Assembly: GCA_903813345.2 (NCBI GenBank)
Contig: CAIIXF020000007.1
Location: 39,511,671-39,575,670, forward strand
Length of the DNA: 64,000 bases
Direction: 5' to 3'
DNA from: Owenia fusiformis
Taxonomy: Eukaryota > Annelida > Polychaeta > Sabellida > Oweniidae
This document shows positions 16,001 to 59,900 of the stretch, one piece after another; positions within the stretch are counted from its first letter, which is position 1; every line of letters begins with the position of its first letter. Both the position numbers and the translations under genes were made by a program. The notes below the pieces were generated by a model. It saw only the letters and a program-made list of their open reading frames with translations. It ran no database searches and was not told the origin of the DNA.

Positions 16001-19000
16001 TTGACATTTGACCTTCAATGACCTTCTCAAGGTCAAAAAAGGTCAAAAAGGTCTTTTTTCAACTTGCTTCAAATTGACTAATTTTTTTTTTCAAAATCAT
16101 CTACATGTTCTTAGAAATTCAAATCTGATTTAAGATTTGACATTTGACCTTTAATGACCTTCTCAAGGTAAAAAAGGTCAAAAAGGTCTGTTTTCAACTT
16201 GCTTCAAATTGACCAAATTTTTTTTCAAAATCATCTACATCTTTTCAGAAGTTCAAATATGACTTTACAAGTTCTCAGAAGTTCAAATCTGACTTTAGAT
16301 TTGACCTTTGACCTTCAATGACCTTCTCAAGGTCAAAAAGGTCTTTTTTCAACTTGCTTCAAATTGACTAATTTTTTTTTCAAAATCATCTACATGTTCT
16401 CAGAAGTTCTTCTTAAGGTCAAAAGGTATTTTCCAACTTGCTTTAAATTGACCAAATTGTTTTAGGTGGTGACATTTTGTCATGTTAATGCCGTGTCATT
16501 ATTTATCAGAGTTTATTTGGTATGCTCTCAGTATACTATTGAAAATCATAAGTAAAACTGGTATGCTTTCAGTATATTCAGTCTATTCAGTCTATTCAGT
16601 ATCTTTATACCTATTTACAGAACTTTATTCAGTATATGTACCTAATAATTGGTATGGTATCAGTCTGGTATCCGTATATACCTATCAACAAGGTATACTT
16701 TTAGTATACTTTTGGTATAGACTGACTATACCTGGCAATAGGCTGGGACTCTATTGATTTACTAGTCGTGGCTTAAAGAAATAAGTACCACACTTTTACA
16801 AGAAAAGTTATAACAAATAAGGGAAATGACATTTTAATTTCATTTAATCAAAATATTTTTATTTTGAACTTTGTATTCTACCATAATATAGTACTATGTA
16901 TGCAGTTTAGAAATGTGTAAAATAAAACAGTTTCTTTAAATTATTTGTTTTTATGACAATGAAAGAATAAGAAATACCATGTACCAGCTCATCCCATACA
17001 TGAACCATTGCTTATAACTTACCTTCCACAAACCTCAAATTTACCCTTTCAGACACCAAGAGTACCAAGAGCAATAAAAGATAAGTTGAAGAACTATCTC
17101 AAGGCTTTGCAAATGTGTTTTTAGAGTCTTAGAAATTATCTCATTTAACATAAGGTCAGATCATAACCAGCCGCTGTTTCAAGAACACTTAACATTCAAT
17201 TAAGGTTATTGCCTTTATCTTCAGAAATAAACATTTTCACTTAAGAAAGGTCGATCCAACTTTGAAGAGGATATTACCATATTGAAAATGACAAGACTAA
17301 TGATCATATTGTCACTTTATATGGCTTTGTGAAAGTTCAAGCCACTTTAAAATGAATAAGTGTTTTTGAGGTTTTAAGTTATGATTGGTACTTGACTGAA
17401 ACAGGTTGACCTTGACCTTAAAGTCCCCGTCTAAAGTTTGAAAATATTTTTTTATCATTCATTTACTATTTTTCAGGACTTAAAAAGTGATTTTAGAGAT
17501 TTTTGAACAAAAAAAAAAATTTGAAAAAAAAGTTGTGAGCATTTCATTTCTCAAATATTCAAATTTCCCGCCATTTTTCAAAAAAAGTTGAAATTTCTTA
17601 ATCATCAAATATTTCTTAATGCATTTTAAAAAATATTATCTTTTTAACACCAATGCAAAGGTTGAACAAAGGACACACTATTTCAATAATAAAATGCCAT
17701 ATTTAATGGACCACTTCAATGTTTTAGCATATCAAAAATATTTTGAAACATTAGTGATGTCACTAAGGTACCAAAAACTTTTTGAAAAAAATTGAAATTT
17801 TTTTTTCGATGTCAATCTTTTCTAAATATGTTAGACTTTCATAAAAAACCAATGTTGATTGTCTAACCAGGTTAAAGGGAAAAATAAATTATGTTTTAGA
17901 TATCATTGTACCATTGGTTTCTATGAGAACTAAAATTTTGAAATGCATTTTTCTCAGAACCATTTTCATGCACTGATAAGTTCATTTCTCGCTTATTTAT
18001 GAACCGATTTTCTTAATTTTTTTGGCAAAAAACACGGGAGGATGAATGCTATGCATTGGTATAAATTGTGGCTAATTAGAAGGTATGAGTGACCTCTAAA
18101 AGTTGGTTTTAAATAAATTCACAAATTTTGGAACAAAAAGTCTATCAAAAACCACTTTTTGAAATTAAAAAAAAAGTTTCACATATCACACTTTGATAAC
18201 ATTGGGTAAGACTACAATATAACCCAAAGTGGTTTAAACTTTATATGGGGCCTTTAAGGAGTTTTGACTCAAACATGAAAAATTTAGGAAGAATTGGTTT
18301 AAAACAGCATATATTGTGGTAAAATTTAACAATAAGTGAAGAAAAATGACTTCATGAAATCACTTCCAAAACACTTTAATTATTATGCTCACGTTAATAC
18401 AAAGATGTTTTTCTTTTAGAATATTTTCCCTGAGTTTTTCTTATCATTTATGCGCTAACATTAAGAAAGTTCCCCATGATATACTAGCAGTTAAAGATGT
18501 TAGAGTAGTAGCTGTTGAGACCCATAAAGATTCTTAGAATATAAGTAAAAAATAGCAAACTAATGAGCTATTAACGATATTTGGCTTATCTTTGACCTAT
18601 TAAGAGTACATGATCAGAAAAATAAAGTGTTTTTTCCTTGTCACGTAACTGTGTAGATGCGATGATGCTAACGCATGTATAAGTGTATTGAATACCATGA
18701 GATTTGGTCATCATGGAAATAGTGAGGCTTGAGGCAGGTGAGGCAAAATCCTCACCAAAATTTCACAGGAATATATTCATTCAGATGTTATTTAAACTAA
18801 AAACTGTGGAATGGAGTCCAAAGAGAGTAATGTACCTCCTTTAGATTACATTTGCCTCACCTGTTTATATTTGCCTCACTTATTTACATTTGCCTCACCT
18901 ATTTATATTGGCCTCACCTATTTACATTTGTCTCACCTATTTATATTGGCCTCACCTATTTATATTTGCCTCACCTATTTATATTTGCCTCACTTATTTA

Positions 19001-22000
19001 CATTTGCCTCACCTATTTATATTGGCCTCACCTATTTATATTTGCCTCACCTATTTATATTTGCCTCACCTATTTATATTTGCCTCAGCATTTGTCTCAC
19101 CTGTTTACATTGGCCTCATCAAATTCTTGATCCTGGCGATGCTACTGCTTGCTCAACACCTTCAGTAATGTTAGGGAGTTTTAGATAATGTCTTGAACAG
19201 AAAACACTTAACTGTTAATGTTATTCTATAATCTGCCCCGTAACATTCATATCATTTTCTACATACTTGTTTTTCTTGATAAAACAAGACACAACATTTC
19301 GCTTAAGACAACTTATCCTAATTGATATGTTTTTGGATTAGTTTTAGGATTTGTGGCTGTTGGATAGTGAGTCAGTTAGAATCAATTATAGCGAGGGAGA
19401 TTTTGATGTTATTGATTACGGAGGGAGGATTAGAACCTGCCACGAGAGTTCAAGATAATGATCTATATCGCTCTTTTTTCTCAATCATATGCTATTTCTC
19501 ATCACAATTTTTCATCTTTTAGAATCTGATTTCTGATCTTTTAATTCCTTGCTGATTCCTCTCTAACCTGATATGCATTTTTGAGAAATATGATTCATTT
19601 TGTTCTATATATAGATCTTTCAGGGAAGATTTTTATTGAGAGTTAATATTAGTTATTGATTTATTCTTAGCTTTAATCGTCAATGCTGATTGGTTTATCC
19701 TTGGTCATGTGATCAGAAGAGGATCATGGTATGAAACTTTATGTGTTTATATCTAATGGGATTAGAAACCCCTTTCTTTGGATATTATCCTATCTGTTTT
19801 ATGAACGAGACCCGGATTTATTTTATGTCGAATTTGTGTTATGGTTTAGTATGATCTGTTAATGAAATTATAATGGATCATAATATTCCATTAATGTTAC
19901 TTTTATGGAATTATAAAAGCTTTTTAAAGTTACGTAAAACTCGCCTAGCAGATTTCCGGTGCAGATTTTTAAAGTCTGCAGATATTTTTGGAAAGTAATT
20001 TAATTTGTGAAAGTTCTTACTGATTTTAAAGATAAGTCAGGTTTGGTAATTAAACAGCTTCGATGAAGCATGTACTTTGGAAAAAACCTGTTCAAATGGT
20101 TAATAGGGCATTGAATTGATGTTTTTCTAGCCTTTCCAGAAATCTCACATTTTGCGTAGTTCAGGAGAAATGTCAAGCTTCGATTCATTCAATTATTTAT
20201 TTATTTCATTTTCGTGGTATTTTACATGTAAAAAATGTTGCTTTTTCCATGAAATTACATGAGAAAGTAACATTAGTTAGAACTTTAGAAAATAAGTATG
20301 TTTACAGTGTGTTTCACACAGTTACTCAAATATCTTTTCTGTACCAAATCAACCGAAAATAGATGCTGTTTATCGCCAATCCTTGTGGCGTATTCTCCCA
20401 AACATATAACGTTTCAAAGATAATCTGGGCTATACAGAAATATCATGCTAAGGGTAATGATTTGGTTTACAGGTATTATGAAAATACCATTGAAACATTC
20501 CGAAAAAATAAAAGCGATTGACAATTAAATGTCTGAAATGTAGATACATGTAATTATATTTCAGGTTGACTTTTTTGTCTCATTCAAAAATTATTAAACA
20601 CTGGTTATATTTTAAAGGACCAATCATTTTGTTGCTTAAATTCTCATCTCAAATTCTGAAAAAGGTTCATGTTTTAGTAGATTTTGTACAAGTTATGATA
20701 TTATTATAAAATGAAAGTATATAAGGGTTATTTCGGAAGAAATAAAAAAACACATTCATATTAGGTTAAAGAGGTATTTAGATATACAGATATCACTATA
20801 CCACTGGAATTTTAAAGGTTTATGTGATTTGTTATTGAAGTACTTTTTTGAAACAGGATTATTTGTCTACATGGACTTTATTCCCAGTCCCATGGTGAAA
20901 GATATAAAATCAGTTTTCAGAATAAACAGAGAGAAAAATACTGTATGTTTTTATACAGATTTTGAGATGTTTTTATGTGGCCCTAGGGGACGTATCACTC
21001 TTAGTGTTACAATCATAGAAGAATTTCAAGGTGAAGACAAGAAACATAGTTTCCAAATTATATCAAATCAATATCTTACACACACTCAGGTTGCCTTGAT
21101 CTGTATATATTATAAATCAAGGGCATGGCCTGGTATGAGCCAGGCGAGGCAATTGCCTCTCTATTTTTCCTGGAAAAGTACCCTGAGTGTAAAGGTTAGC
21201 CAAGTCAAAGGAATGGAAGGGTATCAATTCAGAGTTTTTTAATTGTAAAAAGACATATGATAGTATAATTTAATATTTCGATATTTGCCTTACCAATTTC
21301 AATATTTTCCTCAACAATTTTAATTTGCCTCACCTACTTTTACACCCTGACTATATGCTCCTGTATATGACAACATTGCAATGAAAATAGATAAATTAAA
21401 TGTTTGGACTGTTTAGCTGTAGAAAAAATCAAAGAAAAAGTCAAGGTATTAAAAAATTTCACAAATCCCCAGGGATTTAATTGACAATTTCGTGAAGATT
21501 AATTTTGCGATTTTACCACAATCACGAAAAGCGTGAAACTAAATCGCACACGAAAAATACAGAGAGTACAGTTTTTTTAAAAGCTAAGGTTTTAAATCAT
21601 ATTCTATTCAAATTCTATTACTGTTAGATTCATAAGACATAGATATTATTTGATGTTCAAAGCTAAATTTAAGTAAAAATTCCCAAGCCGATATTCCTTA
21701 AGAAATATCTGAAGAATACAGACTGAAGAATAAAGATGTTCTACACATATGTTTTTCTTACCAAGAAAACTGAAGAATTCTGTAACATCAATTTGACATA
21801 TTGTAAATGCTTATCTGCATTCAGGATAATCTGGAGATAATCCCAGAATTTGGATTAACAACTTGGAGTACCTGTTATAGTGTCAGGTAGCGCCTGTCAA
21901 ATTAGACTCCCAGCTGGTTCAGAATCTTTTTTCTCTGATTTTTTCTACAATTTAGCAAATGGTTCCAACTGATAGCTAACCTTGACTTTGTTCGATAACA

Positions 22001-34000: not shown

Positions 34001-37000
34001 TCATCATTTGACATCAAATTAAATATACAAAATCTGGTGTGCATGTGATCTTTCCTAAGAGATTCCTGCCAAACAGACTTTTATATTGTGTCTTAACCTG
34101 CAAATGTTTAGCACATGGATCATATGTGCTACTTCCACTGTTTATTAATAACAGTTTCCTTCTCGTAGGTGCACAGAGAGATGCCCCGATGATAACCCAG
34201 ATTGTGGGAGACAGCGATGTATCTGTCAGAATGGAGGAGAATGTAACGAAAGAGGCTTCTGCATCTGTAAACCTGGGTGGCAGGTAAGAAGAAACAAATA
34301 CAGTAAAACATGTACAAGTGGAACGCCTTTATTATTGCAAAGAAATGTTCCACTCGAAAGGTGTTTCACTTACAGAGGTTCATTTGTTTGATATCAGTTG
34401 GTTACAGGACTTAAAGTGCACCCCCATGGAGGTATTTCATTTTTTGAGGTGTTCCATTTTCAAAAGTGTTTCGGTTTTATGTTTGTGCTTAAATGGAATC
34501 ACATGCTTTATTGAACTTACTTACATGTTAAAAAGTTTTTCCAATCAGCTTTAGAGCATATTTTCTAGCTCTGAGCTCCTTTAAGATAAACAAAACTATC
34601 AGAATATTGAAAAAAATCTGTTTTAAGACCCCTTTTCCTGTGGGCTGGGCTCTTTTTACTGTGATAACTCTATTGACTTCAATGTTAATACCAGTATTTG
34701 CAGGGCTTTAATGTTGATATTTGCAGGGCTTTAATGTTGATATTTGCAGGGTTTTAGTGTTGACATTTGCAGGGTTTTAATGTTGATATTTGCAGGGTTT
34801 TAATGCTGATATTTGCAGGGTTTTAATGTTGATATTTGCAGGATTTTAATGTTGATATTTGCAGGGTTTTAATGTTGATATTTGCAGGGTTTTAGTGTTG
34901 ATATTTGCAGGGTTTTAGTGTTGATATTTGCAGGGTTTAATATTGATATTTGCAGGATTTTGCAGGATTTTAATGTTGATATTTGCAGGGTTTTAATGTT
35001 GATATTTGCAGGGTTTTAATGTTGATATTTGCAGGGTTTTAATGTTGATATTTGCAGGATTTTAATGTTTATATTTGCAGGGTTTTAATGTTGATATTTG
35101 CAGGGTTTTAATGTTGAAATTGGCAGAGTTTTAATGTTGATATTTGCAGGGTTTTAATGTTGATATTTTCAGTGTTTTAATGTTGATATTTGCAGGGTTT
35201 TAATGTTGATATTTGCAGGGTTTAATGTTGATATTTGCAGGGTTTTAATGTTGATATTTGCAGGGTATTGCATGTGCCGTTAGGTGTCCCCAGGGTCTGT
35301 ATGGTCCAGAGTGTCGAGAGACTTGCAGCTGTTACAATGGCGCCACCTGTGACCCAGAGTATGGAAAATGTTCCTGTCCCGATGGCTACATTGGAGACAG
35401 GTAACACAAACATTTTAATTTTCAATTAAAGAATAGTTTCTGATCAAGAGTACTCAGTGCTCAAGTTTTACACCATGGGGTTTGTTTTTGAACTCTTAAT
35501 TTTAAGGGATAAGTATGTTCAACTAATGCTGTGGTCACATTTACTTCGATTTTTACTACGGCGCCCGGCCGATTGAGTATTTTTTCAAAATTGTATTCAA
35601 TTTTGAACAAAATACTCACCGGCCAGGCGCTGGTGTTAAAAATCGGAGCAAATGTGACCACGGCATTTCTACAGGCAGTCATTTTCTGCCTTAACCTGCT
35701 TGATCCCCTTGCTAATTTTAAAACAATGTTATCCCAATGTTTTATCTTGGCAACACCCTTAATTGTCATCAAAGTGTTCACTCCATCATTCCTCCTCAGA
35801 TTGCCATGATCTTATTTTTAAAGATTTGTTTTGAATTTTACAAAAATTGATGTTACTTCCTTCAAAAAAAGCATTTTAAAGCTCTTTTCTTCTATATCCC
35901 CCATGGCTACGCCTATGAAATGTTAATACTCTTTGAAAATATTCCTTATTTCACTGAATGAATTATGAATTTTATACTTTGTGTTCCAGATGTGAAGAGG
36001 AGTGTACGCCTAATAGATACGGGAAAAACTGTACGGAAGTCTGCCAGTGTGTTAATGACGCCATATGTGGTCACACAGATGGCAGGTGTGCATGTGCACA
36101 GGGCTACACGGGCCACCATTGTGAAATAAGTGGTATGTTGGTACCTTGGAAACTAGAGGTTGATTAGATTGTGTTTCTGCTACCATGGTAACAATTAGCG
36201 TGATCCATTGATATTTGATTATCATGATTCTCTTTGTTTTCAGTTTGTCCACAATTTCACTTTAGTCTACCAGAGTGCAGCGAGACTTGTAATTGTCACC
36301 GAGAGTACTCAAAGGCATGTCACCCAGCCACTGGGGAGTGCATCTGCCAGCCTGGGTGGTCAGGACCCCAGTGTACCGACCCATGTCCTGCTCCTTTCTA
36401 TGGTGACCAATGTGGCTTACAGTGCCCCTGTACTAATGGGGCGTATTGCGACCCCATTGATGGAACATGTATATGTGCTCCTGGATATACAGGTCTATAG
36501 TAAGTGTATATATAACAGTATAATTTAGAGAGTTTGTACAGGTCAACCTGTGTAAGTACCTCAAAGTGTTCCGCTAATGGCACGCCTTTGAAGTGTCTTA
36601 TCTACAGAGGTGTTCCGCTTCACAGGAATTTTAAGTAATCAGTTCAAATAAACTTCAGTTCAGCCGATTATTTAATTAGATATTTGCAGACATTAAAATA
36701 TGATTAGAATAAAATCAAATCAATTTTCATGCTATCTTACTTGTGCACAATACTTGTAAATAAAAAACAAACATATGTGTCCGTCTTTAACATTTTTAGT
36801 ATTTCTTTATTTGTTTCCATTTTAGTTGCGAACGGGCCTGTAGCAATGACACATATGGATTAAATTGTGCTGAAAGATGTCAGTGTTTACATGACAGCGA
36901 CTGTAACCATGAGAACGGTGTATGCAGCTGTGCTCCAGGTAACATATTGTCTCATTCCGTGGTAACCATTATATTCATAGAATATCAAAATCAGTGTTTG

Positions 37001-41465: not shown

Positions 41466-42609
41466 AATAAGAATGACAGGGGAAATCTGGGAAATCTGAC
41501 AGAGTCCATGCGTCCTGAGCTTTATGTGACTGGCAAATAAAATCAGCACGGAAAGTGCATCCAACGAATGAGGGGAATTTTCATACTTTATCATTCCGTT
41601 CTTAATATATTGTATAATATATTTGTTTTCTGTTTTACGGGTTCCCATTGAAATTGGTTACAACACAGGCAATATATCGCAGGTTAAATGAGTGTTCAAC
41701 AATTAATTACGGCGGTCTTCATTTTATAGTTCATGAAAATTGCCTCAAGTACAATGTCAAAATCTCATGATGATTTCTTCCGACCTATGTTTACTGACGA
41801 GAGAGGGGTATGCAGTTGCTTGAAGCAAGCATAAACTATGAAAAATCCATAGTCCGATAATTAATTAATTGGCACGAATCTGTTAATTGTTTTTGTTATT
41901 GTTACTTGATTAGACGGATTTTCATATATTATCTGCATTGAGATGGCTGATTATAAGGCATGACTATTTTTTCCAGTTATGTTAATTGTTATTTTATATG
42001 TTTGAAATATTTATTAATCCATCCATTTTTCATTTTGATATACTTTTCAAAGCGACTTTTGGTTTTATCTCGGTGTTTTATTTATGATAATTTTTAACAA
42101 AGTTAGGACTAGCCTACAAGGAATTCCATATAGCCTATAATTGATTTTAATTTAATAAAGTTTGCTGATAATTGATTTAAGTGTAGAAATGGTAACGCTC
42201 CCGAAGAGTGCGTGTGTGCCTGGCAGGATCGCCAATAGAATTGCATGTTGTTGTTTTTTGATAGTTAGTTTAGAACTTTTACCACGTGAAGTATTCAATC
42301 CATATACGCAAACGTGCGTGTACTTTGAAGGGCTTTGAAGTCTCTGGTAACATTAATTTTTAGGGTTTCGAAGCCATTTCCACCCCCTCCGGTATTCTTT
42401 CTATGGGAGAGGTTTTTCAAAAATAATTATAAACTTTTGAGACCTTTGGGGATATCAAGTCACATATCCTTATATATTTAGTTTTTTTCCGGAAGGATTA
42501 GAAAATAAAAATTAAAACATAGAGAGGCAAAGACGTGAAAGTGTGGGAAGTTTTAATATTTAATTTATGCTTTTCTTTCATTCAAATGGCAACCCTCGAA
42601 TATAATTGC

Positions 42610-42800
42610 AATTGACCTCCATTGCATTTAAAGGGGGAGGGGGTTCAATCATCGCCTTTCTCCAAAGTTTATTTAAAATCGTGCAGTTTTTCATGATTCT
42701 GAGCTCTTTTAACTTAAGTGATGACCAATGTTGTTTAATGTGGACCCCCTGCCCCTATCACTGGAAAATGGCTACGGGCCTGAAAGGGCAAATATTGTCA
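42610..42800 (-). mobile_element. CCCGTAGCC-type MITE, diverged, arm 1
   Basis: Reverse orientation: it ends GGCTACGGGCCTGAAAGGGC at about 42772-42790. Inside are CGTGCAGTTTTTCATGATTC and GGGGGTTCAATCATCG. An identical mirror copy lies at 63220-63410. An 85-codon open frame covering it is not a gene. Confidence 0.65.
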
Positions 42801-43789
42801 TTGATTTCTCGAAAGCTCATAATACACCCAATCAACCAGGTGGGTCTGAAGGTGAAAACCTAGACAATCTCTGTAATCAAAGGCTGAGACGATATTTTCT
42901 ATAATCAGAGTCCTAGACGACTTCTGCTGTAATCAGAGTCCTGGGTGATCTTTAGACTTTCTCATAATTAAAGTAGCCAAACATCCGCTGAACAGGGAAA
43001 TTGATGGATTAATGAATAATCTTTTGTTTGTTATTTTAATTATACTTATTGTTTTGCCAAATATAAAACGTTTGTTTCCGATTATAATACAAGTGTATGT
43101 ATCAAATCCATCATGTGAAGCAATCCCTAAAAGCAGAACAAGACAGCCACAATAACCACCTTATTTTAAGGGTATAACTACTAGTTTAGAAGTCTTATAT
43201 TTTACTATATGACTTGAGCAATAGCCCAAAAGCACGTGTTCACTGCTCAAAATGTAGAAAAACTGACTATGGGCCTGAATCTCACCCCCCCCCCCCATTC
43301 AGTTCCATCACTAACATTCATTTATATCATAATTTAATATATTTAGTATTATTGAGAATGTAAGCTGGACAGTTATATAATAAAACAAATATTTCGTTTA
43401 TTTTATTTATCTCAGGCCCTTAGCCAGGATTTGCCAGGGGGGGATTCGTGGAATACTAGTACATGTAGTATCACTTTTGAAAGATGTACAGGTATTCACC
43501 ACAATAGAGTGAAATATTTGCTAAATAATCATAAGAAATAAACATCTGCAGCGGCAGCAGTGCAACATTTTTATATCAAAATTAATAAAAAGAGCATGCT
43601 ATAAACTGTAACTATATATAAGCTTATATTATGTAACATGCAAAAATAATAAATCTATTTCAATATTGCTAATATAGAGCTTTTTGTCTTCGAAATTGTC
43701 ACGATCGCCGCCACCTGTAATAAAACAATAGAGAGGTTAAGCTACACGTTCTTTAGGTGAACGCGTAAAACTTATTTTTCCCTGGGGCA

Positions 43790-43990
43790 CAGGCCCGTAG
43801 CGAGGGGGGTTCGATGGGTTCGGGCGACCCCCCTGGACAAAACTTTTCTCAAAATTTTGCAGTTTTCTGAGCATTTTTAAGTGATTTTGGCCATTTTTGG
43901 ACCAAAATTGTCACAAGTGACCCCCCCGTGGAATCTATCAAAAAATGAACCCCCCCCATTGGCAAATCCTGGCTACGGGTCTGGGGTATA
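43790..43990. mobile_element. CCCGTAGCC-type MITE, arm 1
   Basis: Both ends carry the family terminus: AGGCCCGTAGCGAGGGG at the left and CAAATCCTGGCTACGGGTC at the right. Between are GCAGTTTTCTGAGC, AAGTGATTTTGGCCATTTTT and poly-C tracts. A fragment with the same terminus lies at 43415-43445. The mirror copy is 62032-62230. Confidence 0.75.
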
Positions 43991-45210
43991 TCTCTCAAAG
44001 TTGTCTTTAAATTTGACTAGTTTAGTATAAAGATCTTAGGTAAGTTGTTGTTATTATTATAAACCGTTGGATGGGGGAAAATTTTGCTTAGGGTCACAAA
44101 ATTACACGTTCAGGTTTTGCTAAATGCATGTAGCTGAATCTCTCTTAATACATATCTGAAAGATAACGCAAGCCCTTAATTATTAACTTTCAAATATAAA
44201 CAATGAAACAAGTAACTGAAAATTAACATGAACGCCAAGTAACCCACTGACTCTTGGGATTCGAAAGTCAGTTGTGGTTGCAAATGGTCGAATGCATGCA
44301 TTGAATTAATTATAACTAAATATTTTTCAGAACTGCGTCGAATTCCACAATGCATTTACTCCTGTCTGTAGTGAAGGCTTGCACCAACCCCTTCGGCCTC
44401 GCCTCTCTTCCTGCTATCCCTCTCGTAGCATCCCACTCCTAAAATGAATATTATATTAAACAGACGAATTTCATGTACATTGTATTAATTGATGCATCAT
44501 AATTATTCAATTGTATGATGAATTAAATATTATTTACAATTATTTTGAATACCAAACGAAACCCTTTTATGTCATTCTGATACTCTTGGTATCTTTCTTT
44601 TTCACCTGAAATATGCTGAGCAGACATGAGATGCCATGGTTTATCATGATGCTTTTATATAGGCTATTAATTATAGTTCTCTTTGCAATATAAAACTGGA
44701 ATGTTTATGCAAAACCCAATTGGACTGATATAAAGGGGTATTGTTTCACTATGTGGACTTGAGAAAGGCCGACATACTCATTGCTTCCAGTTCCAACCTA
44801 AAACTTATAATAGGAAGTTATCAAGATCCAAAAACACGATCGCTTCTTAAACAATACGCTTGTAAAATCCCGGCGATCAAATGCAATCAAACTTTCGCAA
44901 TCAGGTGCCTAATTAGTCTTTTGATCTCCGAAGTTTTACTGGACTTTTCAATGAACTCGTGAGAAGCAAACGCAATCATCACAAACTCAAATAAACATGT
45001 TTCTAGTAAATTTGAAATAGAGTAAAACCCAGGGAAAAAGATCGCGTGGTTATTTGATTTTTTCATAGGAATTTGGCATATTTCAATTTTGAATTAGCAA
45101 AAGTCTGTCTCGGAAGAATTTACCAAGCATTCCCTACTTCGATGCGTTTTTATTGCGAGGGCCGTTTAGCGCCGATACGACCTCATTAAGTGTGCTTTAT
45201 TCGTTTTATT

Positions 45211-48200
45211 AGACTCCAGATGTCAATCTGGAGTCTATTGTTTTTGCCAGTATTCTTCTTATTCTTATTCTTATTAGACTCCAGATGTCAATCTGGAGTC
45301 TATTGTTTTTGCCAGTATTCTTCTTCTTCTTCTTATTATTATTTTTCTTTAAGAGTTTTTTCAATAACTATAAGGTATCCAGTAAAGACCATTATACAGT
45401 TCATTTAGGTTCAGTATCTAGTTGGTGGGAAATTGGGTCAAATTTTTATCTAGGTCAAAGGTCGAGAACTAGGTCAAATCCAGTACTTTGTCACTTTTTT
45501 CGATTTTCTCGGTCGTCCTTCAATATTTTTGACCCGGGTTTTTTTCATTGTGTTCCTCATAAAAAAGTAGAAAATCTAGGGTCGATTTAGTTTTTTGGTA
45601 TCTCAAACCGATTTCGAGATATCAGTGTCCGAAAACGAGGTCCAAAAAAAAATTCTCCGAATCAAATGTCCAGGATATCAGTCTTATAGGTGATTTTCTC
45701 AGGATTCCGAATCTGAAAACCAAATTTCGATCTGACTTCCGGTTCAGAAGTTATGGCGTTTTGAAAATTCAAAAATCGCTAAATTTGGTGCCCCATGTTA
45801 ATTCAATGGGAAAATTATTTGTTTTGAAGTGTAAAATACGAGATACAGACTAAGCACAGCTAAACATAATGGAAGCCCATAAAAGAAAGGGACCTCAAAA
45901 CCTTCTTTTCATAAAAATTTGGACACCAAAATGCCTAGGTCAAAATCTAGGTCAAATTCAAAGTTTTCCCTTATTTTTGCGATTCTGACACTACAGATTG
46001 ATTATATTCTTCGAAATTTTGTATACATGTAGCCAAGAGTGTGCTAATAGTGTAAGCCTTTTGCCGTCAGAAAGTATTTTGCCCCACTTTTGAGATATGG
46101 TACCCGAAAAGTAGGTCAAAATAAAAAATTCTCCAAACTTAACGTTTGAGTTATGAATTAAGTATAGAATTTTCTCAGGAATCCGAATCTGCAAATCAAA
46201 TTTCGATCCGACTTCCTGTTCGGAAGTTATGACATTTTGAAAGCTCAAAAATCGCTAAATTTGGTGCCACATGTTATGTCAATGGGAAAAAAGATTTTTT
46301 TGAAGTGAAAAATACGATATATAGACTAAGTTCAGCTAAATTTAATGAAAGCTTTTAAAAGAATGGGACCTCAAAAGCCATCTAGCTTTAAAATTTGGAC
46401 ACCAAAATGCCTAGGTCAAAATCTAGGTCAAATTCAAAGTTTTTTCTTATTTTTGCGATTCTGACACTACACTTTAATTATATTCTTCGAAATTGTGTAT
46501 ACATGTAGCCAAGAGTGTGCTAATAGCGTTAGCCTTTTGCCGTCAGAAAGTATTTTGACCCACTTTTGAGATATGGTGTCCCAAAAGTAGGTCAAAATAA
46601 AAAGTTCTCCAAATTTAACGTTTGAGTTATGAATTAAGAATAGAATTATCTCAGAAATCCGAATCTGCAAACCAAATTTCGATCCGACTTCCGGTTCCGA
46701 AGTTATGGCGTGTCCAAAAAGTAGGTCAAAATAAAAATTCACCAAATTTAATGTATGAGTTCTGAATTAGGGGTAGAATTTTGTCAGGAATCCAAATCTT
46801 TAAATCAAATTTAGATCCGACTTCCGGTTCGGAAGTTATGGCATTTTGAAATTTCGAAAAATCAATCTGATGGTATCCTGATAGAAAGTCAAGAGTAGAG
46901 AAGAAAATATTGAAAAATTCATCCATCCTTCCTATCTGATCATATCCTATCCTTCCTTCGTATCCTTTCCTTCGTATCCTTCCTATCCTCTCCTATCATA
47001 TCCTTTCTTCCTATTCTGTTCTATCCTATCCTTCTTTCTTATTCTATCCTATCGTTCCTTCCCATTCTATCCTATCCTACCTTCCTGTTTTATCCATCCA
47101 TCTTATTCTGGATGACTCAGCTTATTCTGGATGACTCGGCTTATTTTAGATGACTGGGCTTAAAAAAGTCTGGATCTGGAGTCTGAAATTGAACTTTGTT
47201 CAATTTCCCAAGTCTAGTTCTTATTATTCTTTAGGAGTTTTTTCAATAACTATGAGGTATCCAGTAAGGACCATAATACAGTTTATTTAGGTTCAGTATC
47301 TAGTTGGTGGGAAATTGGGTCAATTTTTTATCTAGGTCAAAGGTCAAGAACTAGGTCAAATCCAGTACTTTGTCACTTTTTTTGATTTTCTCGGTCGTCC
47401 TTCAATATTTTGGATCCGGTTTTTTTTCATTGTGTTCCTCATAAAAAAGTAGAAAATCTAGGGTCGATTTAGTTTTTTGGTATCTCAAACCGATTTCGAG
47501 ATATCAGTGTCTGAAAACGAGGTCCAAAAAAAAGTTCTCCGAATCCAATGTCCAGGATATCAGTTTTATAGGAAATTTTCTCAGGATTCCGAATCTGAAA
47601 ACCAAATTTCGATCTGACTACCGGTTCAGAAGTTATGGCGTTTTGAAAATTCAAAAATCGCTAAATTTGGTGCCCCATGTTAATTCAATGGGAAAATTTT
47701 TTTTTTGAAGTGTAAAATACGAGATATAGACTAAGCACAGCTAAACATAATGGAAGCCCATAGAAGAAAGGGACCTCAAAACCTTCTTTTCATAAAAATT
47801 TGTACACCAAAATGCCTAGGTCAAAATCTAGGTCAAATTCAAAGTTTTTCCTTATTTTTGCGATTCTGACACTACAGATTAATTATATTCTTCAAAATTT
47901 TGTATACATGTAGCCAAGAGTGTGCTAATAGTGTTAGCCTTTTGCCGTCAGAAAGTATTTTGACCCACTTTTGAGATATGGTGTCCGAAAAGTATGTCAA
48001 AATAAAACATTCTCCAAATTTAACATTTGAGTTATGAATTAAGTATAGAATTTTCTCAGGAATCCGAATCTGCAAACCAAATTTCGATCCGACTTGGGGT
48101 TCGGAAGTTATGACATTTTGAAAGCTCAAAAATCGCTAAATTTGGTGCCCCATGTTATGTCAATGGGATAAAAGATTTTTTTGAAGTGTAAAATACGAGA

Positions 48201-49112
48201 TATAGACTAAGTACAGCTTAAAATAATGAAAGCCTATGAAAGAAGGGGACCTCGAAGGCTACCCAACTTCAAAATTTGGACACCAAAATCCCTAGGTCAA
48301 AATCTAGGTCAAATTCATAGTTTTACCTTATTTTTGCGATTCTGACACTATATTTAAATGATTTGCTTCAAAATTTTGTATACAGGTAAGAAAGAGTGTG
48401 CTAATAGTGTTAGCATTTTGCCGTCAAAAAGTATTTCGACCCACTTTTAAGATATGGTGTCCGAAAAGTAGGTCAAAAAAAAAAGTTCTCCAAATTTAAC
48501 ATATGAGTTATGAATTAAGGGTAGAATTTTCTCGGGAATTCGAGTCTGCAAACCAAATTTCGATCCGACTTCCGGTTCCGAAGTAATGGCGTGTCCAAAA
48601 AGTAGGTCAAAATAAAAATTCGCCAAATTTAACGTATGAGTTATGAATTAGGGGTAGAATTTTGTCAGGAATCCGAAATTTTAAATCAAATTTAGATCCG
48701 ACTTCCGGTTCGGAAGTTATGGCGTTTTGAAATTTCGGAAAATCAATCTGATGGTATCCTGATAGAAAGTCAAGAGTAGAGAAGAAAATATTGAAAAATT
48801 CATCCATCCTTCCTATCTGATCCTATCCTATCCTTCCTATCTATCCTTCCTTTGTATCCTTTCCTTCCTATCCTCTCCTATCATCTCCTATCATCTCCTT
48901 TCTTCCTATTCTGTTCTATCCTATTCTTCTTTCTTATTCTATCCTATCGTTCCTTCCCATTCTATCCTATCCTACCTTCCTATTTTATCCATCCATCTTA
49001 TTCTGGATGACTCAGCTTATTCTGGATGACTCGGCTTATTTTAGATGACTGGGCTTAAAAAAGTCTAGATCTGGAGTCTGAAATTGAACTTCGTTCAATT
49101 TCCAAAGTCTAG
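45211..49112 (+). mobile_element. Tandem pair of Helentron/HINE-like non-autonomous elements, arm 1
   Basis: The 5' end AGACTCCAGAT starts a hairpin (AGACTCCAGATGTCAATC then TGGAGTCT) and is doubled at 45211 and 45276. The first copy ends near 47217 and the second near 49112. Each has subterminal ATCTGGAGTCT, the inverse of the 5' end, then a hairpin (GAAATTGAACTTCGTTCAAT then TTC) and CTAG about 10 nt later. A TATCC/TTCC microsatellite precedes each 3' end. Bodies contain ~475-bp subrepeats with CTTCCGGTTCGGAAGTTATG and CTAGGTCAAAATCTAGGTC. The asymmetric inverted ends, 3' hairpin and CTAG fit Helentron-type rolling-circle elements. No Rep/helicase is present. Confidence 0.65.
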
Positions 49113-49927
49113 TTAATATTAATGTTATGAAATGTGTAGTTCACAAGTGACACTTTAATGAATTATTTTTAGGTTTACAATTCATATTTGGCTTTTCCCT
49201 CTAAACGTTTAAAATTCATCTTTATACTTTTCTTGATTCAATAAAATTAACATTGGATCCCAGACAGTTATCAAATTCTCAGACATTTGATTAATATAGA
49301 TATTTGTACTTCCTTTGATCAGTGGCTGGTGTGACTGGAATTCGAATCTAATCTGTTTCATTTTTTATGTAAATTGAAAGGAATAAAGTTTTATTTTAAG
49401 TGTTTTAACAATATTAACGTTTGGCGTGCAGCGCAACTTCATACACAATCAAAGAACAGAATACAGGTATAAGAACATGCCTTTTATTTTCAAGCTCGAG
49501 CAATATCCCCGTTATAAACCCAAAATACGGTCCTTGGCAGCAAACCTGTATGTGCCCGCTTTTCACCATAACTAATAAATAAATTAAGTACTGAATATAA
49601 AATTCGATTCTGAATAAAAATTTAAGAACGTGGTTTGCGTTATTCAATTATTTATTTAAACGAACGCTCTCGTCTTTTGAACTTTATAAAGAGTAAATCC
49701 GATCTGAGATTTGAAATCGGGAATAAAAGATACACACATACATAATAACAAAAGATATACGTTCCAAAATAAAAAAAAATAGGAGAAGAATCTAGATTAC
49801 AATCCAATAAACAATATCAAGTTTAAAATCCGACAATACGCTCCGGCCGTAAAAGTTTCTGAATTTAATAACAACGTATATTTGACTGTGTAATTATATC
49901 CATTGATGTTGTAAACTATACTACGGT

Positions 49928-50251
49928 TTAAGCAGAATTTTCTACTTGGATAATTCCTGCCTCGATAGTGTAGGGATCGCTCACATCAGGTAGGCCATCA
50001 TAAGGGTTGGGGGGGGGGGTTCACATAAGTCAGAGAGTGTGTCAAAGGACACTCTTCTTGTCTCACTGACCTTGTAAAATTGTTCTATAGTTGCGTTCCC
50101 AATGCGGGTGTCTGAAAATATTTCATCTGATGGAGAAGTTGTTCTTGTTCTGGGAGTTTCATTTATTTCAAAATGGTTCAAGATAAGGTCGAGTTTCCTG
50201 CTGTTCTCTTCTACGGTCTTCTGGAGTTGTATTTGCATATTATAGATTTCA
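49928..50251 (-). pseudogene. Arm 1 copy of the candidate terminal exon, frameshifted
   Basis: This is the minus-strand mirror of 55770-56094. The poly-C tract (read on the minus strand) has 11 C instead of 12. After EPPPP the frame changes and ends at 49981 with TLMMAYLM then stop. The rest is identical to the other arm. It may be a real lesion, a polymorphism, or a homopolymer sequencing error. Confidence 0.6.
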
Positions 50252-50433
50252 CTGGAATAGCGTACCCAATGTTAAAGGCTGGCCATTAACCAAAACGCAA
50301 TATGAGAACATAAATAATTTTTCATTTTCATACAACTGAAGGCATAATAAATGCTTTAATATAAAGTAAACGTATATATAAATGTATTTTAAGCGTAAAA
50401 TCAAAGCACAACCATTTATTAAAAAAAGAGAAA

Positions 50434-50507
50434 CTGCCAGACTGGGACTCGAACCCGGACCATCCGCGTGGTAGGCGAGGATCTCAAAACTTCGACAACT
50501 AAACATC
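50434..50507 (-). pseudogene. tRNA-Gly-like sequence (SINE head or pseudogene), arm 1
   Basis: Mirror of 55514-55587; see that entry. Confidence 0.55.
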
Positions 50508-51769
50508 AGTTATTACCATCAACAATTTAACAGTATCATATTATAAAAAACAACATATATTAAAGGTGCAACAATGAGTTCAAAGCGGCCATTCAATGAT
50601 CATGGATCATTAAAGTTTGGATTGCCCGCCCTATTTTCCCCATTTTTTCATTTTTGTATAATCTCTCATTAGGCCTATAGCTCAAAATATCACTAGGGAC
50701 CAAGGGAAAACCCTAGAATTGCACGTGTCATGGAATAGGCTGTTCAGAATGTCAGCCGCTTGCCGTCGGGAGACCGCTTTGCTCACTGGAATAGCGTACC
50801 CAATGTTAATAATAGCCTAGTATCATTACTAGAAACCGTGTGATTTCATTGGTCGATTCAGTACCATGTGATCAAAAATACCATAACATATATTAAAGCT
50901 CTATTTGGATTTTAAAAGACGTATTGCCGGGCGTATTTTCCGTCCGGGAATTCTGACAACTGTACTGGACGAAAACATCGGGAGACCGCTCCGCCCACTG
51001 TCTGAAGCCAATGTTTTTGCTATAAATCAAGCCACGGGGATCTACAGGACCTGTGATTTAAATACATGTTAGTAAAGTGATCATCAAAATGAATGTCCTT
51101 GCTTGCTTTTAAAAATAGGTTTTCATGCGTTATAGGCCTATACAAAGTGAGTAATGTGTCTAAAGACATGATAATAATATGTTACTTCATTTTATTTCAT
51201 ATAATTACTCCAAATTTTCCCATCTCACTCTTCAGAGTTAATGAGTTCCTTTTAAAAAAATACGAATTCGTGAATGTTCCATCGTACGTATCACTCCCCC
51301 TTCCCCGTTCACGGCAACCGCATTCGTATGGTACGTGTACATGTACATTAAACTAACAAGAAAGCAATAACATTAGTTTTGTGATAATAACGTCCCTTAT
51401 AAGTATTTGTTTTCGGCTCGTGTAGATCACTGATTTATAGCAAAAACATTGCCTTTTGCACGTTGGTGACGATGAACCTTTTGATTAGATGTCATGATGT
51501 TTGCAGCGCCTACTGTATTCTTAAAGCAATTCAAGAGTAAACTTTCTCTTTATCTTGAAAAAAAAATCTTCTAGATTTGTTGAATTTTCTTGCAGAAATC
51601 GATGCCTTATTTTATCCGATCACAAAGCGTAATGTTGCATTTATACAGTTTCATATTACATTCTACGGCCGAGACCTTAACTGCTAAACGGACGCTCAAC
51701 GTTATGTTTTAGGCATCTTTACGCGATTTTTATTGAACCGTTCGTTTCATTAAAATATTTCAAATCAAA

Positions 51770-51920
51770 TTATGAATTACTATAAAAGGTAAATAAAAAT
51801 AGAAAATAATGAATAATGCGTTGAAAGTAATAACTTCTTTCAAATTATGAATTGCTATAAAAAGTAAATAAAAATAGAAAATAATGAATAATGCGTTGAA
51901 AGTAATAACTTCTTTCAAAT
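51770..51920 (+). repeat. 76-bp tandem duplication, arm 1
   Basis: AAATTATGAATTRCTATAAA then AATAATGAATAATGCGTTGA and AGTAATAACTTCTTTCAA occur twice in tandem. The mirror copy is 54105-54255. Confidence 0.85.
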
Positions 51921-52201
51921 TGCATTTCTCCCTTGGAATTCTAGTTTAAATTGATTATAGATATTAATGCTGCAATGTTGCATTGAATTCTACGGCCGGA
52001 TCTTACATGCTCATCAACTGCGCTGGTGGTGAACGACTGCGAAGCGGACGCTCAGCGCATTGAGCGCTGGCGATCTACGACCGCATCGCGCGCGAATAGC
52101 GAGCGACCAACGAACGCTCAGCGCACGAACTACGCCCGCTTCCCGAACGAGTGTACGGCGGATGGCGACGTGTGAGCTTTGTTACTGAGAGTACTGTATT
52201 G

Positions 52202-53815: not shown

Positions 53816-54104
53816 CCGTACCTACAGTACTCTCAGTAACAAAGCTCACACGTCGCCATCCGCCGTACACTCGTTCGGGAAGCGGGCGTAGTTCGTGCGC
53901 TGAGCGTTCGTTGGTCGCTCGCTATTCGCGCGCGATGCGGTCGTAGATCGCCAGCGCTCAATGCGCTGAGCGTCCGCTTCGCAGTCGTTCACCACCAGCG
54001 CAGTTGATGAGCATGTAAGATCCGGCCGTAGAATTCAATGCAACATTGCAGCATTAATATCTATAATCAATTTAAACTAGAATTCCAAGGGAGAAATGCA
54101 ATTT

Positions 54105-54255
54105 GAAAGAAGTTATTACTTTCAACGCATTATTCATTATTTTCTATTTTTATTTACTTTTTATAGCAATTCATAATTTGAAAGAAGTTATTACTTTCAA
54201 CGCATTATTCATTATTTTCTATTTTTATTTACCTTTTATAGTAATTCATAATTTG
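54105..54255 (-). repeat. 76-bp tandem duplication, arm 2
   Basis: Mirror of 51770-51920. Confidence 0.85.
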
Positions 54256-55513
54256 ATTTGAAATATTTTAATGAAACGAACGGTTCAATAAAAATCGCGT
54301 AAAGATGCCTAAAACATAACGTTGAGCGTCCGTTTAGCAGTTAAGGTCTCGGCCGTAGAATGTAATATGAAACTGTATAAATGCAACATTACGCTTTGTG
54401 ATCGGATAAAATAAGGCATCGATTTCTGCAAGAAAATTCAACAAATCTAGAAGATTTTTTTTTCAAGATAAAGAGAAAGTTTACTCTTGAATTGCTTTAA
54501 GAATACAGTAGGCGCTGCAAACATCATGACATCTAATCAAAAGGTTCATCGTCACCAACGTGCAAAAGGCAATGTTTTTGCTATAAATCAGTGATCTACA
54601 CGAGCCGAAAACAAATACTTATAAGGGACGTTATTATCACAAAACTAATGTTATTGCTTTCTTGTTAGTTTAATGTACATGTACACGTACCATACGAATG
54701 CGGTTGCCGTGAACGGGGAAGGGGGAGTGATACGTACGATGGAACATTCACGAATTCGTATTTTTTTAAAAGGAACTCATTAACTCTGAAGAGTGAGATG
54801 GGAAAATTTGGAGTAATTATATGAAATAAAATGAAGTAACATATTATTATCATGTCTTTAGACACATTACTCACTTTGTATAGGCCTATAACGCATGAAA
54901 ACCTATTTTTAAAAGCAAGCAAGGACATTCATTTTGATGATCACTTTACTAACATGTATTTAAATCACAGGTCCTGTAGATCCCCGTGGCTTGATTTATA
55001 GCAAAAACATTGGCTTCAGACAGTGGGCGGAGCGGTCTCCCGATGTTTTCGTCCAGTACAGTTGTCAGAATTCCCGGACGGAAAATACGCCCGGCAATAC
55101 GTCTTTTAAAATCCAAATAGAGCTTTAATATATGTTATGGTATTTTTGATCACATGGTACTGAATCGACCAATGAAATCACACGGTTTCTAGTAATGATA
55201 CTAGGCTATTATTAACATTGGGTACGCTATTCCAGTGAGCAAAGCGGTCTCCCGACGGCAAGCGGCTGACATTCTGAACAGCCTATTCCATGACACGTGC
55301 AATTCTAGGGTTTTCCCTTGGTCCCTAGTGATATTTTGAGCTATAGGCCTAATGAGAGATTATACAAAAATGAAAAAATGGGGAAAATAGGGCGGGCAAT
55401 CCAAACTTTAATGATCCATGATCATTGAATGGCCGCTTTGAACTCATTGTTGCACCTTTAATATATGTTGTTTTTTATAATATGATACTGTTAAATTGTT
55501 GATGGTAATAACT

Positions 55514-55587
55514 GATGTTTAGTTGTCGAAGTTTTGAGATCCTCGCCTACCACGCGGATGGTCCGGGTTCGAGTCCCAGTCTGGCAG
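55514..55587 (+). pseudogene. tRNA-Gly-like sequence (SINE head or pseudogene), arm 2
   Basis: CTCGCCTACCACGCGG resembles the anticodon arm of tRNA-Gly, with loop CTACCAC and anticodon ACC. GGTTCGAGTCCC is a good B box and TAGTTGTCGAAG a poor A box. The T stem has one mismatch, and the last seven bases TCTGGCA do not pair with the region upstream, so a functional acceptor stem is missing. A T7 run, a pol III terminator, follows 4-5 nt later. A tRNA-derived SINE head or pseudogene is more likely than a working tRNA. Confidence 0.55.
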
Positions 55588-55769
55588 TTTCTCTTTTTTT
55601 AATAAATGGTTGTGCTTTGATTTTACGCTTAAAATACATTTATATATACGTTTACTTTATATTAAAGCATTTATTATGCCTTCAGTTGTATGAAAATGAA
55701 AAATTATTTATGTTCTCATATTGCGTTTTGGTTAATGGCCAGCCTTTAACATTGGGTACGCTATTCCAG

Positions 55770-56094
55770 TGAAATCTATAATATGCAAATACAACTCCAG
55801 AAGACCGTAGAAGAGAACAGCAGGAAACTCGACCTTATCTTGAACCATTTTGAAATAAATGAAACTCCCAGAACAAGAACAACTTCTCCATCAGATGAAA
55901 TATTTTCAGACACCCGCATTGGGAACGCAACTATAGAACAATTTTACAAGGTCAGTGAGACAAGAAGAGTGTCCTTTGACACACTCTCTGACTTATGTGA
56001 ACCCCCCCCCCCCAACCCTTATGATGGCCTACCTGATGTGAGCGATCCCTACACTATCGAGGCAGGAATTATCCAAGTAGAAAATTCTGCTTAA
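55770..56094 (+). CDS. Candidate 3'-terminal coding exon, tyrosine-motif cytoplasmic tail (open copy)
   Basis: A CGCTATTCCAG acceptor (to 55769) is followed, in phase 2, by 107 codons to TAA. The start EIYNMQIQLQKTVEENSRKL is amphipathic and could form a short coiled coil. It continues with TTSPSDEIFSDTRIG, FYKVSETRRVSFDTLSD (RRVS is a basophilic kinase-type site), EPPPPNPYDGLPDVSDPYTI and EAGIIQVENSA. NPYDGL and DPYTIE resemble the short tyrosine motifs in MEGF10/CED-1-type tails. The strand is that of the EGF gene, so it may be its tail; no transmembrane exon links them. A different gene is possible. Not recognised by family. Confidence 0.4.
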
Positions 56095-56909
56095 ACCGTA
56101 GTATAGTTTACAACATCAATGGATATAATTACACAGTCAAATATACGTTGTTATTAAATTCAGAAACTTTTACGGCCGGAGCGTATTGTCGGATTTTAAA
56201 CTTGATATTGTTTATTGGATTGTAATCTAGATTCTTCTCCTATTTTTTTTTATTTTGGAACGTATATCTTTTGTTATTATGTATGTGTGTATCTTTTATT
56301 CCCGATTTCAAATCTCAGATCGGATTTACTCTTTATAAAGTTCAAAAGACGAGAGCGTTCGTTTAAATAAATAATTGAATAACGCAAACCACGTTCTTAA
56401 ATTTTTATTCAGAATCGAATTTTATATTCAGTACTTAATTTATTTATTAGTTATGGTGAAAAGCGGGCACATACAGGTTTGCTGCCAAGGACCGTATTTT
56501 GGGTTTATAACGGGGATATTGCTCGAGCTTGAAAATAAAAGGCATGTTCTTATACCTGTATTCTGTTCTTTGATTGTGTATGAAGTTGCGCTGCACGCCA
56601 AACGTTAATATTGTTAAAACACTTAAAATAAAACTTTATTCCTTTCAATTTACATAAAAAATGAAACAGATTAGATTCGAATTCCAGTCACACCAGCCAC
56701 TGATCAAAGGAAGTACAAATATCTATATTAATCAAATGTCTGAGAATTTGATAACTGTCTGGGATCCAATGTTAATTTTATTGAATCAAGAAAAGTATAA
56801 AGATGAATTTTAAACGTTTAGAGGGAAAAGCCAAATATGAATTGTAAACCTAAAAATAATTCATTAAAGTGTCACTTGTGAACTACACATTTCATAACAT
56901 TAATATTAA

Positions 56910-59900
56910 CTAGACTTTGGAAATTGAACGAAGTTCAATTTCAGACTCCAGATCTAGACTTTTTTAAGCCCAGTCATCTAAAATAAGCCGAGTCATCCAG
57001 AATAAGCTGAGTCATCCAGAATAAGATGGATGGATAAAATAGGAAGGTAGGATAGGATAGAATGGGAAGGAACGATAGGATAGAATAAGAAAGAAGAATA
57101 GGATAGAACAGAATAGGAAGAAAGGAGATGATAGGAGATGATAGGAGAGGATAGGAAGGAAAGGATACAAAGGAAGGATAGATAGGAAGGATAGGATAGG
57201 ATCAGATAGGAAGGATGGATGAATTTTTCAATATTTTCTTCTCTACTCTTGACTTTCTATCAGGATACCATCAGATTGATTTTCCGAAATTTCAAAACGC
57301 CATAACTTCCGAACCGGAAGTCGGATCTAAATTTGATTTAAAATTTCGGATTCCTGACAAAATTCTACCCCTAATTCATAACTCATACGTTAAATTTGGC
57401 GAATTTTTATTTTGACCTACTTTTTGGACACGCCATTACTTCGGAACCGGAAGTCGGATCGAAATTTGGTTTGCAGACTCGAATTCCCGAGAAAATTCTA
57501 CCCTTAATTCATAACTCATATGTTAAATTTGGAGAACTTTTTTTTTTGACCTACTTTTCGGACACCATATCTTAAAAGTGGGTCGAAATACTTTTTGACG
57601 GCAAAATGCTAACACTATTAGCACACTCTTTCTTACCTGTATACAAAATTTTGAAGCAAATCATTTAAATATAGTGTCAGAATCGCAAAAATAAGGTAAA
57701 ACTATGAATTTGACCTAGATTTTGACCTAGGGATTTTGGTGTCCAAATTTTGAAGTTGGGTAGCCTTCGAGGTCCCCTTCTTTCATAGGCTTTCATTATT
57801 TTAAGCTGTACTTAGTCTATATCTCGTATTTTACACTTCAAAAAAATCTTTTATCCCATTGACATAACATGGGGCACCAAATTTAGCGATTTTTGAGCTT
57901 TCAAAATGTCATAACTTCCGAACCCCAAGTCGGATCGAAATTTGGTTTGCAGATTCGGATTCCTGAGAAAATTCTATACTTAATTCATAACTCAAATGTT
58001 AAATTTGGAGAATGTTTTATTTTGACATACTTTTCGGACACCATATCTCAAAAGTGGGTCAAAATACTTTCTGACGGCAAAAGGCTAACACTATTAGCAC
58101 ACTCTTGGCTACATGTATACAAAATTTTGAAGAATATAATTAATCTGTAGTGTCAGAATCGCAAAAATAAGGAAAAACTTTGAATTTGACCTAGATTTTG
58201 ACCTAGGCATTTTGGTGTACAAATTTTTATGAAAAGAAGGTTTTGAGGTCCCTTTCTTCTATGGGCTTCCATTATGTTTAGCTGTGCTTAGTCTATATCT
58301 CGTATTTTACACTTCAAAAAAAAAATTTTCCCATTGAATTAACATGGGGCACCAAATTTAGCGATTTTTGAATTTTCAAAACGCCATAACTTCTGAACCG
58401 GTAGTCAGATCGAAATTTGGTTTTCAGATTCGGAATCCTGAGAAAATTTCCTATAAAACTGATATCCTGGACATTGGATTCGGAGAACTTTTTTTTGGAC
58501 CTCGTTTTCAGACACTGATATCTCGAAATCGGTTTGAGATACCAAAAAACTAAATCGACCCTAGATTTTCTACTTTTTTATGAGGAACACAATGAAAAAA
58601 AACCGGATCCAAAATATTGAAGGACGACCGAGAAAATCAAAAAAAGTGACAAAGTACTGGATTTGACCTAGTTCTTGACCTTTGACCTAGATAAAAAATT
58701 GACCCAATTTCCCACCAACTAGATACTGAACCTAAATAAACTGTATTATGGTCCTTACTGGATACCTCATAGTTATTGAAAAAACTCCTAAAGAATAATA
58801 AGAACTAGACTTGGGAAATTGAACAAAGTTCAATTTCAGACTCCAGATCCAGACTTTTTTAAGCCCAGTCATCTAAAATAAGCCGAGTCATCCAGAATAA
58901 GCTGAGTCATCCAGAATAAGATGGATGGATAAAACAGGAAGGTAGGATAGGATAGAATGGGAAGGAACGATAGGATAGAATAAGAAAGAAGGATAGGATA
59001 GAACAGAATAGGAAGAAAGGATATGATAGGAGAGGATAGGAAGGATACGAAGGAAAGGATACGAAGGAAGGATAGGATATGATCAGATAGGAAGGATGGA
59101 TGAATTTTTCAATATTTTCTTCTCTACTCTTGACTTTCTATCAGGATACCATCAGATTGATTTTTCGAAATTTCAAAATGCCATAACTTCCGAACCGGAA
59201 GTCGGATCTAAATTTGATTTAAAGATTTGGATTCCTGACAAAATTCTACCCCTAATTCAGAACTCATACATTAAATTTGGTGAATTTTTATTTTGACCTA
59301 CTTTTTGGACACGCCATAACTTCGGAACCGGAAGTCGGATCGAAATTTGGTTTGCAGATTCGGATTTCTGAGATAATTCTATTCTTAATTCATAACTCAA
59401 ACGTTAAATTTGGAGAACTTTTTATTTTGACCTACTTTTGGGACACCATATCTCAAAAGTGGGTCAAAATACTTTCTGACGGCAAAAGGCTAACGCTATT
59501 AGCACACTCTTGGCTACATGTATACACAATTTCGAAGAATATAATTAAAGTGTAGTGTCAGAATCGCAAAAATAAGAAAAAACTTTGAATTTGACCTAGA
59601 TTTTGACCTAGGCATTTTGGTGTCCAAATTTTAAAGCTAGATGGCTTTTGAGGTCCCATTCTTTTAAAAGCTTTCATTAAATTTAGCTGAACTTAGTCTA
59701 TATATCGTATTTTTCACTTCAAAAAAATCTTTTTTCCCATTGACATAACATGTGGCACCAAATTTAGCGATTTTTGAGCTTTCAAAATGTCATAACTTCC
59801 GAACAGGAAGTCGGATCGAAATTTGATTTGCAGATTCGGATTCCTGAGAAAATTCTATACTTAATTCATAACTCAAACGTTAAGTTTGGAGAATTTTTTA

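Follow-up and report, generated by a model that had tools for sequence, protein, structure and literature searches.

A tandem array of 26 copies of a 23-bp unit occupies the 3' end of one intron in the window, the 64,000-nucleotide stretch of DNA analysed here, and its last copy, judged by homology, is the acceptor of an EGF-repeat exon. Features of the sequence itself are the array with its unit, the open frame, a comparable strength in most of the copies and the occurrence of the same architecture at other exons. We consider it likely that the array is a minisatellite of the mirage type, in which the 3' end of the intron was tandemly duplicated, the last copy is spliced and the array is near-neutral.

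Structure of the acceptor array

The earlier note on this DNA had described a 23-bp satellite made of 26 splice-acceptor copies, and TRF together with a list of units cut after every CAG confirmed this description (Table 1). Matches between copies were 90-94%, with a TRF score of up to 930 in the window. Of the 26 CAG-ended blocks, 22 are full units of 23 nt and two (34934, 35219) have 22 nt; the first is truncated to 9 nt (34695-34703), and another has 10 nt (34956-34965). Nine of the 22 full units match the consensus exactly, and as a set they diverge from it by 16 substitutions in 506 positions (mean 3.2%). None of these substitutions falls in the AG, where 1.4 would be expected, too few for the absence to be telling, and substitution in the TTTGCAG core was not significantly lower than elsewhere in the full units (2/154 versus 14/352, p 0.17). 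The array crosses the intron-exon boundary and takes in just 3 exon bases, while the 5' splice site lies outside the unit, the donor at 34284 being 411 bases upstream.

Table 1 Features of the acceptor array and its host gene in the window
Feature	Position	Strand	Basis
Upstream coding exon (exon 7 of the earlier note), ending in CKPGWQ; donor GGCAG/GTAAGA	34169..34283	+	Sequence, translation, EGF families
Intron holding the array	34284..35263	+	Donor and acceptor from sequence and reading frame
Upstream edge of the array, degenerate partial unit (TTCAATGTTAATACCAG)	34660..34694	+	By eye
Acceptor satellite, 23-bp unit GGTTTTAATGTTGATATTTGCAG (consensus), 26 CAG-ended copies	34695..35266	+	TRF, unit list, unit variants
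Exon-proximal unit, the acceptor that fits the frame; branch-like TTAAT (putative branch role), whose A at 35248 lies 15 nt before the intron end	35241..35263	+	Frame, weight matrix, 5-mer enrichment
Junction at the exon-proximal copy, TTAATGTTGATATTTGCAG/GGT	35263/35264	+	Sequence
Coding exon (exon 8 of the earlier note); donor GACAG/GTAACA	35264..35400	+	Sequence, translation, EGF matches

The genome (G000; 498.3 Mb, 525 contigs) was searched for further sites of the unit. The DNA search, in which very common words were skipped, gave three matches, and the two outside the window (L002 and L003), considered as relatives of the array, were rejected as unrelated minisatellites of 24 bp and 22 bp. 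A pattern search, described below, likewise met the unit only at the window among the 100 listed of 102 places. A dispersed satellite or transposon brought into the intron was rejected, since these searches met no second site of the unit. Only one near-identical locus for the exons of the window was found in a protein search of the genome.

Host exon and reading frame

When 34283 is joined to 35264 in phase 0, the EGF pattern carries on from CKPGWQ, and the joined repeats match EGF families as well as EGF proteins of solved structure, among them Tie2 and SCARF1. Homology thus fixes the last unit as the acceptor, in agreement with the proposal of the earlier note that the last copy is the working one. 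The phagocytic-type receptor of that note is only a candidate identity, as the EGF repeats match Tie2, SCARF1 and other EGF proteins. Splicing at 35240 would add 23 nt and shift the frame, which then stays open up to the exon end, and splicing at 35218 would add 45 nt in frame and meet a stop after 9 codons. The frame shift or stop previously claimed for these two sites was found on translation for all 25 upstream CAG copies. Further EGF repeats like those of this gene were observed at G000:C7:39590248-39593633, past the window end, and in a cluster at C1:53744883-53752161; they are possible extra exons and paralogues.

Strength of the copies and branch signal

A weight matrix built from 204 acceptors, all of myosin and kinesin exons in the same genome, was used to score the copies. 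At 10.75, the last copy ranks at the 82nd percentile of that training set. Exactly this score is shared by 13 of the 26 copies, 21 score at least 10, and the five weakest reach 9.59, 9.28, 9.08, 8.56 and 4.2, consistent with the earlier picture of a 3' splice site amplified upstream of itself into a ladder of near-equal acceptors. Since half of the copies have the score of the last one, local sequence cannot decide the choice among them.

Upstream of 161 array-free acceptors, TTAAT was the most enriched 5-mer between -45 and -12 among those seen at least 12 times, with 34 occurrences there versus 46 in a larger control stretch (-200 to -80), a 2.8-2.9-fold enrichment; YTAAY at the same acceptors peaks 20-24 nt from the intron end. 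TTAAT stands in every unit of the array, within TTTTAAT, and its A precedes the unit end by 15 nt. TTGAT, which the earlier note took as the branch-like element, was rejected as branch signal because it is only 1.3-fold enriched, leaving TTAAT as the better candidate. With a high matrix score and a TTAAT, the 23 nt look like a complete acceptor by the genome's own standards. The next upstream AG lies within 23 nt at 42 of 173 sampled acceptors, so the spacing in the array is tight, not abnormal.

Acceptor arrays elsewhere in the genome

To obtain a rate from exons not chosen by repeats, exons were taken by Pfam family, giving 211 matches (91 of 92 Myosin_head and 120 of 144 Kinesin); these two gene families stand for all exons. 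One myosin match lay beyond the fetched stretches, 18 kinesin matches (C2:23266359-23269174) were set aside beforehand and later turned out to be one acceptor array, and 6 of the other 126 kinesin matches were left out with 5 of 85 regions omitted at random. Exon borders were drawn from HMM match ends and the weight matrix, visual checks being confined to loci with an array, and an array was defined by a TRF score of 50 and a period of up to 500. A confident acceptor was assigned in 173 of the 211; the other 38, including L061, where an array ends before the exon, had no candidate scoring at least 5. The sample is not fully independent, as a single gene contributes 12 of the myosin matches in the form of look-alike exons in tandem. 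These matches (L021, G000:C9:37986009-37994334) each cover positions ~18-84 of Myosin_head and look like alternative muscle myosin exons.

The acceptor AG lay inside a TRF array at 12 of 173 acceptors (6.9%, 95% interval 3.6-11.8%), each checked by eye, or at 13 of 174 when the C2 kinesin array is counted once. At two of them (L044, L050) the AG chosen by the script is not the real acceptor, which by eye lies within the same array. Arrays covered 17 of the 173 loci at -250, 15 at -50, 12 at +10 and 6 at +50, thinning out within the exon. The difference between the acceptor and -250 (12 versus 17 of 173) had a p of 0.44, so arrays cross acceptors not clearly less often than they cross introns, and the interval is compatible with moderate selection against acceptor arrays. 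In the literature searched, which mostly lacked subscription journals, no genome-wide rate of acceptor arrays was found.

Ten of the 12 sampled arrays have 2.2-4.5 copies, and only L066 (10 copies) and L030 (16 copies) reach at least 10, so the 26 copies of the window are the extreme of a commoner thing. L030 (G000:C9:5823600-5824800) is a myosin exon between two long minisatellites: one (32 bp x 16) spans the acceptor, the other (26 bp x 19) starts just past the donor. In the kinesin array on C2 (L130, G000:C2:23265900-23269700, 446-3289; minus-strand coding), the head of an exon is repeated together with its acceptor as a 159-bp unit in 17.9 copies; of these, the last alone reads on into the full exon, while those printed from further upstream run into a stop. 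Beside the spurious match L003, an array of 54 bp x 16 was found by chance; it ends in the exon GMGYLHARGIVHKDLK of a KSR-type kinase (E 8.7e-17).

Donors were covered by arrays at 6 of 209 sites, after one of seven raw matches (L030) was dropped because by eye the chosen GT is not the donor; the comparison with acceptors (12/173 versus 6/209, p 0.088) is suggestive only. In kinesin and myosin exons, arrays cover or start at the 5' splice site at L035, L097, L100, L101 and L121; the array of L100 starts at the GT, and the real donor of L121 is another GT within the same array. The six also include L045, with 2.2 copies, viewed in part.

The pattern search, for three TTTGCAGG words 18-48 bases apart, met 102 places. 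The 100 listed were grouped by eye into 15 arrays including that of the window, and the two unlisted could be part of the last array or of a different one. By eye, the last copy runs into a coding-looking exon in seven of the 15 (window, L006, L008, L011, L012, L013 and L014). L018 is a possible further case, L015 and L019 look like donor-side arrays, and no exon was seen beside L007, L009, L010, L016 and L017 in the printed stretches. The exons of L008 and L012 match myosin Ib (E 2e-7) and aryl-alcohol oxidase (7.3e-5), and weak matches were obtained for L014 (aldehyde oxidase, 0.01) and L013 (MFS_5, 0.023). Those of L006 and L011 had no Pfam match, nor L011 any in PDB; the gene of L011 is tentatively labelled CHD. 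Being picked by an acceptor word, these arrays say nothing on rate. The reversed pattern, used as a control, gave 2 and 35 places versus 74 and 28, with no clear reverse-strand excess; it was left aside because the word contains CpG and the places are not arrays.

Comparison with known boundary minisatellites

Canestro 2002 is reportedly the paper on the amphioxus Adh3 mirage, and Turri 1995 that on the splice-donor minisatellite of IFI6 (6-16). Mirages of amphioxus are minisatellite-like duplications of intron-exon boundaries, described for the globins BflGb6 and BflGb9 and for Adh3 (PMC3087553). In the passages of that report cited here, units are 10-160 bp long and many copies carry splice signals, RT-PCR suggests that regular splicing is undisturbed, and one cluster has 6 units in one haplotype and 3 in another (PMC3087553). 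The array of the window resembles them in that tandem repeats span the boundary, as on the acceptor side in BflGb6, and the authentic boundary, placed by the EGF frame, stands at one edge. The amphioxus cases, as far as those passages go, involve few genes and globin clusters of 3-6 units, whereas the window has 26 copies of 23 nt that are almost pure acceptor, in an animal genome that does not look like that of amphioxus, with a rate of 12/173 acceptors. The mirage kind is therefore already known; what is new is a complete acceptor in 23 nt, repeated 26 times, together with a rough genome rate.

The VNTR in intron 18 of human ABCA7 is similar in having a 25-bp unit, ~24 copies and a splice site within the unit at the exon border. 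Unlike the array of the window it lies on the donor side, and its length was linked by experiment to exon skipping and expression, one unit being retained in 2 +/- 1%, according to the passages cited (PMC5954066). The IFI6 minisatellite, also on the donor side, likewise has units that are splice sites at an exon border, and use of two downstream units yields three mRNAs in the part of the report cited (PMC4526556). Tandem repeats at exon-intron boundaries with a mean unit of 30 bp have been tied to novel introns in human duplicated genes (PMC2812944). They concern 27 intron modifications in segmental duplications, and the passages cited describe no acceptor ladder.

Choice among the copies

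The frame consequences of upstream splicing were followed in 20 acceptor arrays, namely the 12 of the Pfam sample, six met by the pattern search, and those of the window and the KSR gene. In 18 of the 20, splicing at the nearest upstream copy would shift the frame or run into a stop, and this holds for 119 of all 129 upstream copies, the other 10 keeping the frame open. Frame-preserving units are not favoured, as only 4 of the 20 nearest inserts have a length divisible by three. With the protein disrupted in nearly every array, this indirect test indicates that splicing probably goes mainly to the exon-proximal copy. Frequent use of upstream copies would damage kinesins, myosins and KSR, and units favouring multiples of three would be expected. 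Against exclusive use of the exon-proximal copy count, by analogy, the human donor-side minisatellites of IFI6 and ABCA7, where neighbouring copies are in some measure used.

Under the mirage-type reading, the duplicated stretch would comprise the branch-like TTAAT, a short spacer, TTTGCAG and the first 3 exon bases, and tandem duplication would spare the exon-proximal junction. Splicing would run from the upstream donor to the last copy, the remaining copies being removed with the intron. As the local sequence of the copies is often identical, the choice must lie on the exon side, and exon definition is a plausible rule: the last copy would be preferred by its pairing with the exon and the downstream donor, not by its own sequence. 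Exons have a median length of 168 nt and a 90th percentile of 262 nt (n=172), so ~5 upstream copies of the window would still give an ordinary exon, and length alone is insufficient. If an upstream copy were used now and then, the mRNA would be frame-shifted or carry a stop and would probably be degraded, and the array would then be near-neutral.

It is unlikely that a sizeable share of transcripts uses the upstream copies and is degraded, with copy number tuning expression. Such a competition would be favoured by the 21 strong copies and the 25 frame-breaking ones, with which any upstream misuse would cost output, and by analogy with ABCA7, where the length of the VNTR goes with exon 19 skipping and reduced expression, and with the neighbouring copies used in IFI6. 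Kinesin, myosin and KSR genes nevertheless tolerate like arrays with frame-breaking units, mirages are reported to leave splicing undisturbed, and nothing regulatory was seen in the sequence. The ideas that mis-splicing lowers output and that array length acts as a receptor switch found no support here, and like arrays lie in unrelated genes. The effect of ABCA7 length on splicing speaks by analogy for a length switch, and both copy-number variation and the use of other junctions are possible by analogy with ABCA7, IFI6 and the amphioxus mirage.

We regard it as improbable that the array, instead of being seeded by the acceptor, grew as an intronic minisatellite beside the exon until its TTTGCAG replaced an older acceptor. 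Minisatellites are common, with 20% of the window in TRF arrays, and with only 3 exon bases in the unit the direction of growth is not readable from it. Yet the units of the sampled arrays carry clear exon sequence, which such a capture leaves unexplained, although it could hold for the array of the window. That the array or its copy number is an assembly artefact is very improbable: the window also holds an inverted repeat of 10.18 kb (99.98% identity) and an amphioxus mirage was, in the passages cited, mis-assembled in a draft, but the copies carry distinct variants in mixed order and like structures stand at exons on many contigs.

Implications

A broader proposal, advanced tentatively, is that acceptor duplication in this animal is nearly free, with about one in 15 acceptors in arrays, and that its spliceosome picks the exon-proximal copy faithfully by a rule outside the acceptor. 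Scanning models favour the first AG past the branch point; with a complete, often identical acceptor every 23 nt, the choice must come from the exon side. If the proposal is true, the arrays would amount to thousands of natural experiments on how 3' splice sites are chosen and to a lasting supply of new introns and extended exons. As many arrays differ in unit length and copy number, the rule of choice could be read from ordinary RNA-seq. The data suggest that boundary-spanning minisatellites, reported in amphioxus, can be common in another animal genome, which bears on the gain of introns and exon ends.

Other features of the window

The inverted repeat of the window has arms at 42023-52198 and 53823-64000 (10,178 bases), separated by a 1.6-kb spacer; it reaches the window end and reflects either a fold-back of the assembly or an inverted duplication of recent date. 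At 4895-5104 and 18846-19087 of the window and at 1310-1520 of L012, arrays resembling one another in their 19-bp unit (TTTGCCTCACCTATTTA-like) were noticed by eye, suggesting a dispersed minisatellite family. G+C makes up 0.335 of the window and 0.35 of the fetched loci.
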